A stretch of DNA of 30,108 nt from the IMG/VR virus record IMGVR_UViG_3300047335_000038, positions 1 through 30,108 of that record; one strand, written 5' to 3'. The translations under genes and the position numbers were made by a program. Positions 14,870-24,614 of the stretch are shown in pieces. Below the pieces are notes generated by a model. The model made no database searches, was not told the DNA's origin, and was given only the letters and a program-made list of their open reading frames with translations. This stretch comes from a virus. Every line of letters begins with the position of its first letter. Within the stretch, counting starts at the first letter, position 1.

Positions 14870-14959
14870 TTGGTTGGCTTGCAGGAACTTTACTGTTGGT
14901 TGGCTCAGTCTTTACGTTTGTAAAGAGTTGGTGTTGGTTGTGTTAAGACTTGGTGTTGG
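14870..14959 (+). repeat. Short direct repeats in a G/T-rich tract
   Basis: TTGGTTGGCT occurs at 14870 and 14896 (26 bases apart). TTGGTGTTGG occurs at 14928 and 14950 (22 bases apart). The spacing of roughly two helical turns resembles iterons, but the tract is low in complexity. Confidence 0.5.
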
Positions 14960-15205
14960 GTTGGTAATGGATGTGTGTTGAGTGTGTGAAGGCCTCGCAT
15001 GTCAAGTCGTTACAGAAGCTTGATGTCAAGTAGGAGTCGGTTAAGAAACCCTAACTGTCCGCTATCGAGAACGCACACTGCGCCCCAAAGGTCCTTCCTT
15101 TATATAGCCAGCTTTACCGAATGTTGATTCTTCTCGAGTAAAACGCCACAAATGAGCACGAAAAGCTTTACTTTTGTTAATTTTTCTTTACAAATCCGGT
15201 GATTG

Positions 15206-15219: not shown

Positions 15220-15358
15220 TTTCGGTATTAGGTTTGCATATCCACTATAGCGTACAACATGTCAATAGTGATAATGATTTTCACTTTCATTAGATGAAGG
15301 CAGTCGCTGACATCACTTTCTGTGTGTTGGAAGTTAACATGTGCTTGACACTATTAGA

Positions 15359-15387
15359 TTGCCAGGTTGAGTAGTGGTTGATACAAT
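15359..15387 (+). promoter_or_regulatory. Early promoter P1
   Basis: TTGCCA, a 17-base spacer and TACAAT. Upstream at 15345 is TTGACACTATTA and downstream AATTGAAGCATAGAAAG; both are repeated at P2 with identical spacing. Confidence 0.72.
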
Positions 15388-15412
15388 TGAAGCATAGAAA
15401 GGCAGGTTTATT

Positions 15413-15625
15413 GTGAGTGTTGATCAGGTTTACGATGAGGCAGATGTCGCACATGTGAACGAGCTAAAGGGCTTATATTATGAGGCGCAAGCGATGCGTG
15501 ACGATGTGCTGAATTGGAAGCACCAGAGTGCTGCCTCAGAAGCCTTATACGTGCGGTTAAAGCAGATGTGCGACCGTTTGAATGACATGGTGAATGACGC
15601 GCTTGAAAGCCTTCGTACTGCGTAG
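15413..15625 (+). CDS. Small helical early protein, function unknown
   Basis: The GTG start follows AGGCAGG by six bases, downstream of P1. The 70-residue protein is acidic and nearly all helical (DVAHVNELKGLYYEAQAM, then RLKQMCDRLNDMVNDALES), probably a coiled-coil dimer. It is the first gene of the early arm. Similar tiny first genes in phages often target host proteins, but nothing here shows that. Confidence 0.6.
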   Translation: MSVDQVYDEADVAHVNELKGLYYEAQAMRDDVLNWKHQSAASEALYVRLKQMCDRLNDMVNDALESLRTA

Positions 15626-15628
15626 TTA

Positions 15629-15637
15629 TGCTACAAT
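15629..15637 (+). promoter_or_regulatory. Extended -10 promoter for the predicted ncRNA
   Basis: TGCTACAAT is a perfect TGn extension plus a five-of-six -10. No good -35 lies at normal distance, which extended -10 promoters can do without. It begins four bases after the stop codon of the gene at 15413. Confidence 0.55.
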
Positions 15638-15640
15638 AGG

Positions 15641-15744
15641 AACGGCTGTACGTGGGCAACACGAGCGCCTGGCAATAGGGAAAGACCTACCCGTGGCCGT
15701 TCACGTTAACCGGCAGCAAGCTCCTAGGAATAGGGGCTTGTTTT
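15641..15744 (+). ncRNA. Predicted structured small RNA
   Basis: The stretch lies between an extended -10 box and an intrinsic terminator, has no open frame worth calling, and folds well by eye. Its 5' end (AACGGC at 15641, CGTGGG at 15651) pairs with CCCGTG (15690) and GCCGTT (15696), giving a 12-bp stem with GU pairs and a TGTA bulge. A small inner hairpin (TAGG/CCTA) sits inside, and the 3' end is the terminator. I do not recognise a known RNA family. Confidence 0.5.
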
Positions 15745-15747
15745 CTT
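15717..15747 (+). terminator. Rho-independent terminator
   Basis: A 9-bp stem with one GU pair (CAAGCTCCT / AGGGGCTTG) and an AGGAAT loop is followed by TTTTCTTTAT. It ends the predicted ncRNA and separates it from promoter P2. Confidence 0.8.
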
Positions 15748-15756
15748 TATATGCGC

Positions 15757-15799
15757 TTGACACTATTACCTTGTTTGCCTTATTGGTCTGTGAGATAAT
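15757..15799 (+). promoter_or_regulatory. Early promoter P2 with shared upstream element
   Basis: TTGACACTATTA at 15757 and GATAAT at 15794 are 37 bases apart, exactly as at P1. TTGTTT lies 17 bases before the -10. The tract after it, AATTGAAGCATAGAAAG, is identical to P1. Confidence 0.65.
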
Positions 15800-15824
15800 T
15801 GAAGCATAGAAAGCGAGGCCAAAT

Positions 15825-16049
15825 ATGTTTGTGCAGCCGATAACGAAAACGACCAAAACGTCCAAGTTTGTGTTGACGCCTGAAGAAAAACAAGCGCGTA
15901 AGGCGATGATCGACAAACTAACCGAAGAGGTCATGTTGCGTGCTGAGGAGTTCATGCCGCGCAGCGCGATTACGCGAGCAAACACTCGCAAGGCCGTTGC
16001 GAAGGCCTACGACCTAAAGATCCGCGAAAAGATCATGGCAGCGCTATGA
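15825..16049 (+). CDS. Small basic early protein, function unknown
   Basis: GAGG lies six bases before the ATG. The 74-residue protein has a Thr/Lys-rich start, then helices (LTPEEKQARKAMIDKLTEEV, RANTRKAVAKAYDLKIREKI) and is net basic. The pattern suggests a compact helical protein, possibly nucleic-acid binding. The next frame starts in its stop codon (ATGA). Confidence 0.6.
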   Translation: MFVQPITKTTKTSKFVLTPEEKQARKAMIDKLTEEVMLRAEEFMPRSAITRANTRKAVAKAYDLKIREKIMAAL

Positions 16050-16207
16050 GTGAGATGCCAGCTAGCTGTGATTCCTGGGAGCTTGATAACGGCTAGGAGT
16101 ATCGCGATTCGAAGCCTTGCGTGATTTGCAGAGGTGATGCATACGAGAAGGTCAACGGCAAGCCGACCTGTGTCGATTGCTTAGAAGAAGGCCCAGACGA
16201 AGAGTAA
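16046..16207 (+). pseudogene. Zinc-ribbon small protein interrupted by an in-frame amber codon
   Basis: The frame starts at an ATG overlapping the previous stop, runs 16 codons, meets TAG (16094-16096) and then continues for 36 more codons to TAA. The part after TAG is a good zinc ribbon (PCVICRGDAYEKVNGK, then CVDC, with an acidic tail). It has no in-frame start of its own that would keep all four cysteines, although AGGAG follows the TAG. Other genes here use TAG as a normal stop, so general recoding is unlikely. It is a mutation, a sequencing error, or amber read-through. Confidence 0.5.
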
Positions 16208-16214
16208 AGAAGAG

Positions 16215-16247
16215 TTAACCTGCGAATTGAAGCAAGTGTGAGATAAT
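16215..16247 (+). promoter_or_regulatory. Early promoter P3
   Basis: TTAACCTGCGA and TGAGATAATAC are spaced exactly as at P4 (27 bases from TTAACC to GATAAT). There is no standard -35 at 17 bases. Confidence 0.5.
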
Positions 16248-16284
16248 ACGTACATAGAAACCGCGCTAACGAAAGGCAGTTATC

Positions 16285-16673: not shown

Positions 16674-16862
16674 ATGTCGCAGATGAAGCGATACGACGCA
16701 GACCTAGAGGACGAGCTACTCCTCCAAGCGATTACGGTTGAGCCTGATGGTTCTTACCTCGCGCGGTTCCGCTTCGACGATATCGAACTGAAGTCGAACT
16801 TTAAGACGCGTGCACAAGCCGTTGCATGGTACTACGAACTCGATGAACATTTCTACCCGTAA
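16674..16862 (+). CDS. Tiny early protein (beta-beta-alpha pattern), function unknown
   Basis: The 62-residue protein has strands LLLQAITVEPDGSYLARFRF and IELKSNF followed by the helix TRAQAVAWYYELDEHF. It is acidic. The plan is the same as in the preceding and following small genes, which suggests divergent duplicates. Coupled to the preceding gene. Confidence 0.65.
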   Translation: MSQMKRYDADLEDELLLQAITVEPDGSYLARFRFDDIELKSNFKTRAQAVAWYYELDEHFYP

Positions 16863-16869
16863 AGGGAAC

Positions 16870-16902
16870 TTAACCTGCGATAGCTGCGAAGTATGAGATA
16901 AT
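16870..16902 (+). promoter_or_regulatory. Early promoter P4
   Basis: TTAACCTGCGA (16870) and TGAGATAATAC around 16897 repeat P3 with identical spacing. Confidence 0.5.
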
Positions 16903-16925
16903 ACATACATCAGGAGGGCGACAAC

Positions 16926-17144
16926 ATGATTAGGTTTTTAGGGTTATCGTTTCGAGTTATTACTATTGTTTGCATCTTATGGAACACCACAAAGTTTAAC
17001 TATCAACATTCGCTCCTCGCGATTGTTGCTGTGATTGTTATCTCGCATATGTATATAAAAGATGCGGAAAAAGGAACTAAAGCTTCTGCTGTTGTTGCCG
17101 ATGAAGAATATACGGCAGGGTTTACCGCCACTCCCCTGCTGTAA
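16926..17144 (+). CDS. Small membrane protein
   Basis: An excellent AGGAGG lies seven bases before the ATG. The 72-residue protein has two hydrophobic segments (LGLSFRVITIVCILW and SLLAIVAVIVISHMYI) separated by a short polar loop, then a soluble Ala/Thr-rich C-terminus. This predicts a two-span inner-membrane protein. Early phage membrane proteins are often superinfection-exclusion or host-modifying factors; that role is speculation here. It is followed by a terminator. Confidence 0.65.
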   Translation: MIRFLGLSFRVITIVCILWNTTKFNYQHSLLAIVAVIVISHMYIKDAEKGTKASAVVADEEYTAGFTATPLL

Positions 17145-17164
17145 GTAGACACGGACGTTACCTG

Positions 17165-17192
17165 AAAAACCTCCAGAAATGGGGGTTTTTTT
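17165..17192 (+). terminator. Rho-independent terminator
   Basis: A 10-bp stem with one GU pair (AAAAACCTCC / GGGGGTTTTT) and an AGAAAT loop ends in seven Ts. It closes the P4 unit. Confidence 0.88.
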
Positions 17193-22485: not shown

Positions 22486-22732
22486 AATCGACAGCACGAC
22501 CGCAGTTATTATGCTTTCGCTCCTTAGTAGCGCGGAAAGCCCGCTAACCACTGACGAGATAGCCGCTCAGTTTCCCGTCAAGCGTCATAAAACGGTTATT
22601 TGTAACGTCATAAAAGGCCTTCTGCTCGCCGGAAAAATAAAAACGGCAGGCAAGAAACCTACCGTAGGACCGACGGGAAAAGCCTGCCGCGCCTGGACGT
22701 ACGTGCTACGTCAAAGTAAGGCCTTGTCGTAA
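22472..22732 (+). CDS. Small winged-helix-like protein
   Basis: TGAGG precedes the ATG at 22472; an in-frame earlier ATG lacks support. The 86-residue protein reads as a winged helix: VIMLSLLSSAESPLTTDEIA, then HKTVICNVIKGLLLAGKIK and a beta wing (RAWTYVL). It overlaps the preceding gene by 14 bases and runs 22 bases into the convergent integrase gene. A DNA-binding regulator is plausible. Confidence 0.6.
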   Translation: MHQLKIDSTTAVIMLSLLSSAESPLTTDEIAAQFPVKRHKTVICNVIKGLLLAGKIKTAGKKPTVGPTGKACRAWTYVLRQSKALS

Positions 22733-23565
22733 CTATCTCTGAGGTCCTCATCGCACATCTGAACATATCCTGTCGTTGTTTGGATGCTGTTATGCCCCAT
22801 CAGTTTTTGTAGTTTGTAAATGTCCATCCCCGCTTTATAGAGAGAGGTGGCGTATGTCCTCCGAAGAGTGTGAGTCGACCCCGCAAACCCGGAATTTTCA
22901 AGAGATTTTTTCACGATTTGATAGACTGACCAATGAGTTAGGCCTTGCCCTGTTTGAGTTAGGAAAAGCTTGTCGGAAGTCGACGTTGGACGCCGAGAAA
23001 TATACTCGGTCAGAGCTTCTGCAACTAACGGAGGGAAAAATACTCGCCGTTGTTTATTGCCTTTTCCAAGAACAACAAGCGAACGAGATCCAAGATCAAG
23101 GTCCTGTACCAAAAGATTTGCGGCCTCCGACCGGCGAAGGCCGGTTGCTAGAAGCAACTGAAGAATTAAACGATTGCGAGTTTGCCTGTAGGTATTGTCT
23201 GGGCGACTGCCGTTGGTAAGCGTCTGCACCTCTGTTTTCGTTAGCGGATTTAAAACGCGAATCGGAAGTTTAGGCCGAACAATTCCCGCGCAAGGAGACT
23301 TTTCTAAAATCTCTTCATCAACACAAAACTTGTAAAACGATTTCAAAACAGCAAGCGTAAAACGAACACTTCCCGCTGTTAGTTTTCTCTCCTCGGAAAG
23401 GTGCCTTTGATATGCCCGTATGTCAGATTTTTGTACTGCTAACAAGTCTCCGTTCTTTTCTCGAAATCGTAGAAGCTGGCGATGATAATTACTTACTGTG
23501 TGCTCGGACCCGCTCTTTGATCGAAGCAATTGAAGAAATTCCGCTAAAACGTCTAAGTCTGCCAT
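22711..23565 (-). CDS. int: Tyrosine recombinase (integrase, XerC/D-like)
   Basis: The 284-residue protein has an N-terminal SAM-like domain (EHTVSNYHRQLLRF) and a complete catalytic domain. Active-site residues are Arg144 (TGLRRSEA), Lys168 (GKGNKQR), His232 and Arg235 (THTLRRTYAT), His258 (LMGHNS) and Tyr267 (TTTGYVQM). It would insert the phage at a host site or resolve dimers. It is on the opposite strand to the early genes, convergent with the winged-helix gene. Length is short, as in Xer-type enzymes. The 3' region holds a start-less frame (see 23572-23733), and attP may be near. Start has no clear ribosome site. Confidence 0.93.
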   Translation of the reverse strand: MADLDVLAEFLQLLRSKSGSEHTVSNYHRQLLRFREKNGDLLAVQKSDIRAYQRHLSEERKLTAGSVRFTLAVLKSFYKFCVDEEILEKSPCAGIVRPKLPIRVLNPLTKTEVQTLTNGSRPDNTYRQTRNRLILQLLLATGLRRSEAANLLVQDLDLGSRSLVVLGKGNKQRRVFFPPLVAEALTEYISRRPTSTSDKLFLTQTGQGLTHWSVYQIVKKSLENSGFAGSTHTLRRTYATSLYKAGMDIYKLQKLMGHNSIQTTTGYVQMCDEDLRDSYDKALL

Positions 23566-23822: not shown

Positions 23823-24614
23823 ATGATTATCACCGCTCGACTCGACACGTTAGCAAACGTGAAGCTTCACAAAGGCAATAACGGCATGAACGCGCCTTGC
23901 ATCATGGACATGGTTGATTATATTACCGGGGGCGATGGAAGCAACGACGCGCCCGCTTGCGCTTCGAACGCCGTCGCGCAATTCGCAATCGGACTTAACG
24001 ACGCAAGTGTTTTTGTCGAGTTTCGACAGGAGCTTCTCCCGTTCGCGGTTCGAATCGCGGGGACGGCTGGAACACCGGAGCAAGAGCAAACACGCGCGTT
24101 CATCCTTGCCGATTGGGCGGTACGAGAAATAGGACCGCTTGCGCTTGAGGCAAACGGTCTGATCGAGCAAGCCGAAGCGTTGCGAAACCTTGCACCGATA
24201 ACCGGCGGTGAAACTGCTGCTGCTGCTGCTCATGCTGCTTATGCTGCTTATGCTGCTTGTGCTGCTGATGCTATTGCTGCTTATGCTGCTGCTGCTCGTG
24301 CTGCTTATGCTGCCGCTCGTGCTGCCGGTTATGCTGCTACTGCTGATGCTGCTGCTGCTGCTCGTGCTGCCGCTCGTGCTGTTTATGCTGCCGGTTATGC
24401 TGCTACTGCTGATGCTGCTGCTGCTGCTCGTGCTGCTTATGCTGCCGCTCGTGCTGTTTATGCTGCCGGTTATGCTGCTGATGCTACTGCTGCTTGTGCT
24501 GCTGATGCTACTGCTGCTGCTCGTGCTGCTTATGCTGCTAATACGAAACATACGCGCGTAGTATGGGATATGTGCCTCGAAGTGTTAGACAAGCTAATCA
24601 AGGTGACGGAATGA
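23823..24614 (+). CDS. Ala-rich repeat protein with a conserved N-terminal domain
   Basis: The 263-residue protein has a globular N-terminus (~1-125). It resembles a widespread unnamed family of phage and actinobacterial proteins: HKGNNGMNAPCIMDMVDYIT, PACASNAVAQFAIGLND, AGTPEQEQTRAFILADWAVR and LEANGLIEQAEALRNL. Residues ~130-240 are an Ala/Tyr/Arg repeat (AAYAA, ARAVYAAGYAATADA) likely to form long helices, and a short helix closes it (VVWDMCLEVLDKLIKV). AAAGGGAG is well placed. It is the first gene of the ThyX-polymerase operon. Function unknown; the helix could be a spacer or assembly module. Confidence 0.68.
   Translation: MIITARLDTLANVKLHKGNNGMNAPCIMDMVDYITGGDGSNDAPACASNAVAQFAIGLNDASVFVEFRQELLPFAVRIAGTAGTPEQEQTRAFILADWAVREIGPLALEANGLIEQAEALRNLAPITGGETAAAAAHAAYAAYAACAADAIAAYAAAARAAYAAARAAGYAATADAAAAARAAARAVYAAGYAATADAAAAARAAYAAARAVYAAGYAADATAACAADATAAARAAYAANTKHTRVVWDMCLEVLDKLIKVTE
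24211..24540 (+). repeat. GCT-rich coding repeat
   Basis: The Ala-repeat part is made of near-identical DNA units starting at 24321, 24387 and 24462 (66 and 75 bases apart). Each begins GCTGCCGGTTATGC; the first two agree over about 50 bases. Such tracts change length by slippage. Confidence 0.8.

Follow-up and report, generated by a model that had tools for sequence, protein, structure and literature searches.

Gene content and layout of the early region

The window, meaning the whole stretch of DNA that was analysed, covers 30,108 bases of a virus record that is a tailed phage by gene content. The - strand carries terminase, portal and capsid-type genes, and the + strand carries those for primase, helicase and DNA polymerase; a tyrosine integrase is encoded at 22711-23565. 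The relatives found among cultured phages are remote only, with about 25% identity for the polymerase and about 23-30% over part of the portal protein. The primase-helicase is one ORF in the window and two separate open frames, 45276-46289 and 46388-46675 (L041, L043), in a related phage, G002. The divergent region of the window possesses TTGTAAAGAGTTGGTGTT together with a degenerate second copy at 14919-14962, and it has TTGTAAAGAGTTGGTGT in common with the matching region of G002 (L048, 2930-2948, - strand); the TTGTAAAGAGTTGGTGT site is possibly an origin or a regulator site.

A gap of 120 bases (window 15626-15745), which separates the stop codon of an early gene of 70 aa from the promoter of the next gene, is located near the beginning of the + strand early region. 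The features in and around this gap are as follows.

15413-15625, + strand: upstream early gene, 70 aa (ORF)
15629-15637, + strand: extended -10 element TGC-TACAAT, TGCTACAAT (sequence)
15643-15746, + strand: candidate small RNA, or 3' UTR of the 70-aa gene (gene-free gap, predicted folds)
15703-15714, + strand: mostly single-stranded linker before the terminator (predicted fold)
15713-15746, + strand: intrinsic terminator with a 12-bp stem (15715-15742), GGAA loop and T-rich tail (terminator scan, folding)
15756-15799, + strand: promoter of the next gene, TTGACACTATTA element plus TGAGATAAT (repeat of the promoter at 15344-15387)
15825-16049, + strand: next early gene, 74 aa (ORF)

The 70-aa gene has no PHROG or Pfam match, and no relative of the 74-aa gene was found in PHROG, Pfam and protein searches. 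A sequence-only reading had described the stretch as gene-free, and indeed no convincing gene was found between 15626 and the start of the next ORF at 15825. A 71-aa ORF at 15594-15809 was dropped, its start lying inside the preceding gene and no ribosome-binding site being seen. A short ORF with a GTG start at 15652-15678 (8 codons) was also dropped as a leader peptide, because it is very short and a transcript starting at 15643-15645 would lose its AGGA.

Promoter-like element, terminator and their co-occurrence

The extended -10 element noticed earlier before the stretch is present three bases past the stop of the upstream ORF; no -35 hexamer was found 17-18 bases from it. Both strands of the window were scanned for TGN followed by at least five of six matches to TATAAT, which gave a total of 12 sites on the two strands together. 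Five of these are on the + strand in early-region gaps between 15379 and 16894, and the four besides the one at 15629-15637 all sit before genes. The phage therefore seems to use such promoters, which makes it plausible that about 100 bases are transcribed separately here. Transcription usually starts 6-8 bases past the -10 element, and from the position of the element the transcript would start at 15643-15645.

The promoters of the neighbouring genes are related to each other by repeats. A 73-base repeat with 73% identity links the promoter of the next gene (15746-15818) to that of the first gene (15334-15406), and the two have in common TTGACACTATTA, an extended -10 and TTGAAGCATAGAAAG. Both TTGACACTATTA and TTGAAGCATAGAAAG are missing around the extended -10 at 15629-15637. 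A second repeat pair, 16204-16263 and 16859-16910, displays TTAACCTGCGA and TGAGATAATAC(G/A)TACAT at equal spacing. The two pairs give the impression of two classes of co-regulated promoters that carry operator-like elements.

The strong intrinsic terminator reported at the end of the stretch was recovered as a stem-loop at 15715-15742 of about -18 kcal/mol. It is one of two strong clean + strand terminators in the 15-18 kb region. The second, at 17164-17191 after the gene 16926-17144, is of like build, with 12 pairs and a GAAA loop.

The co-occurrence of the two elements was compared with 1500 dinucleotide shuffles of the gap, using a terminator cut-off of -14 kcal/mol or better and a distance between the elements of more than 60 bases. 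An extended -10 arises in 2.1% of the shuffles and a terminator in 2.3%, and both together at that distance in one of the 1500; this test was devised after the feature had been seen, so its value is overstated. The promoter-like element and the terminator thus occur together in the gap more than expected by chance, and a promoter-terminator unit is a plausible and fair reading of it.

Alternatively, the stretch could be no more than the end of the 70-aa transcript, comprising its 3' UTR and terminator, with the extended -10 as a chance match and no independent RNA; such a 3' UTR might be trimmed to a stable fragment. This has a considerable probability, although we would not bet on it. A terminator about 90 bases past the stop and just before the next promoter is the expected end of an operon, and the -10 element is without a -35. 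G002, too, has a terminator and then a promoter separating early genes, and no such RNA; the layout is therefore not special. However, an extended -10 of such quality would be a chance match in only 2.1% of the gap shuffles.

Predicted fold and possible targets of the candidate RNA

The entire stretch folds at -42 kcal/mol, with a z of -2.25 against shuffles, which is largely the contribution of the terminator. Without the terminator the value is -23.5 kcal/mol (z -0.90), and 34 of 200 shuffles are equally good, so the upstream part of the RNA is not unusually structured.

The ends of the stretch had been proposed to pair in a stem of 12 bp interrupted by a TGTA bulge. By letters, 7 outer pairs (GAACGGC/GCCGTTC) and 6 inner pairs (CGTGGG/CCCGTG) are possible, including two G-U pairs, but this form lies 3 kcal/mol above the minimum and the inner six pairs have a probability of 0.002-0.010. 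The outer part was predicted as follows.

15640-15646 with 15696-15702, + strand: outer 7-bp stem GAACGGC/GCCGTTC, pair probability 0.52-0.57 (fold of 15638-15746)

This outer stem can form only when transcription begins no later than about 15641, its probability being 0.0 for starts at 15642-15646. For starts at 15642-15644, pairing of ACGUGGGC with GUUCACGU is predicted to be preferred. When a read-through RNA beginning at 15390 is folded, its single minimum-energy structure lacks the outer stem in the proposed form. An alternative pairing of GCCG with CGGC, earlier taken as a hint of switching, is possible by letters, but there are many near-equal folds and no evidence of a switch. The predicted structure is therefore uncertain, given the improbable inner pairs, the dependence of the outer stem on the start and the many near-equal folds. 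A long bulged stem and switching are not supported by the folding model.

The fold also bears on a cis-acting element like put of phage HK022, in which a folded RNA would modify RNA polymerase and let it read past the terminator at 15742 and on into the genes beyond. The HK022 putL site is about 70 nt, lies just past PL and has two stem-loops (PMC9378689), and here the promoter-like element and the terminator, in an early region, are likewise about 70 bases of RNA apart. This likeness is one of length and position. The candidate has a loose ensemble instead of two stable stem-loops, with near-equal folds, a z of -0.9 without the terminator and start-dependent pairing. Moreover, beyond the terminator there is a separate promoter for the next gene, and no conservation was found. 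A put-like element is thus very improbable.

The predicted linker before the terminator could offer a site for base pairing. Over 12 bases, TAACCGGCAGCA (15707-15718) is complementary to 24320-24331, and the letters of that site recur in repeats at 24386 and 24461. All three sites are on the coding strand of the alanine-rich gene 23823-24614, with a duplex of about -24 kcal/mol each. A trans-acting RNA binding the mRNA of this gene through the linker could make use of them, yet at least 12 complementary bases in phage sense transcripts are reached by 30 of 300 shuffled RNAs. The sites are also inside a low-complexity GCTGCT repeat away from the start codon, and the duplexes of the candidate RNA with ribosome-binding regions are no better than those of shuffled RNAs. 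We provisionally take the complementarity as chance, and regulation of this gene by the RNA is most improbable. The gene possesses a long in-frame GCT-rich tandem repeat at 24214-24539, coding for alanine-rich repeats, with 66-base units in about 4 copies and 9-base units in about 36 copies.

Related phages and interpretation of the gap

Covariance searches had been suggested as a check on the candidate. That against Rfam gave 0 matches in the window at the gathering cut-off. At E 10 there was nothing credible, with two unrelated weak matches in the stretch, the best being a rimP leader (E 4.5) aligned mainly to the terminator. A CRISPR-repeat mimic was dropped, as the sole weak match covers the terminator. 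A custom covariance model (R1, built from the single sequence) found only itself above noise; its only other match in the window was the terminator at 17164-17191 (E 0.22), which is terminator-driven. No match was obtained by blastn of the stretch against phages and plasmids, by an exact 33-mer of it in viral contigs or by a 20-mer in genome contigs. The gapped stem pattern gave 8 matches in viral contigs, each overlapped by open reading frames and taken as chance.

The neighbour, primase and polymerase proteins gave no relatives as single queries, and the terminase gave two. Related phages in the viral contigs were located by terminase and helicase alignments.

G002, 49.4 kb: terminase 51%, helicase 54% and polymerase 56% identical
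G005, 49.7 kb: terminase 45% and helicase 44% identical
L053, 50.3 kb: helicase 45% identical
L052, 52 kb: helicase 45% identical

For G002 and G005 the early regions were read, and those of L051-L054 were scanned for extended -10 elements and terminators. A like RNA was absent from the four related phages by blastn (G002, G005) and the single-sequence covariance model, though at 44-54% terminase or helicase identity they are too distant for a strong negative.

A decoy role had also been suggested. 6S RNA forms a hairpin with a bubble at its centre and measures roughly 180 nt; the candidate is about 100 nt, with no such hairpin predicted and no credible Rfam match, to 6S or otherwise. Nothing supports this role.

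Phage-encoded small RNAs are a known kind and include lambda OOP, whose transcription starts at a dedicated promoter, pO, as well as VpdS of VP882, 24B_1 of phage Phi24B and PreS (PMC12197685). The candidate resembles them in layout: a stretch of 50-300 bases devoid of genes, flanked by a promoter-like element and a terminator. For the known RNAs, however, expression has been shown, several with targets, whereas for the candidate no homologue and no credible target were found.

We infer a short early transcription unit in the gap, which would give a separate non-coding RNA of about 100 bases, with a probability of a little under one half (about 0.48). Host RNA polymerase would start at the extended -10 at 15629-15637, at about 15643-15645, and transcription would end at the terminator, at about 15742-15748. 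The same terminator at 15715-15742 would also end read-through mRNA of the 70-aa gene and shield the promoter of the next gene. Our guess at the likeliest mode of action, should there be one, is that the RNA pairs in trans by way of the unpaired linker 15703-15714, as many phage small RNAs do. Arguing for the transcription unit are the rarity of the two elements together in shuffles, the four sister elements before genes, the ORF-free gap and the strong, clean terminator. The absence of a -35, the missing neighbour elements, the ordinary fold without the terminator, the lack of a homologue and the post hoc statistic argue against it. The earlier proposal of an RNA with its own promoter and terminator is thus partly supported: its promoter-like element and its terminator stand, and its structural part is not supported. 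A fuller version, in which a small RNA peculiar to this phage lineage is made early and independently of nearby promoters and regulates phage or host genes by base pairing, appears rather unlikely.

We find no evidence of a new mechanism for the candidate RNA. Since phage small RNAs are already known, even a favourable outcome adds one member, and the general picture is unchanged on present evidence. If the stretch is transcribed, this phage group without close cultured relatives would gain one lineage-specific small RNA.
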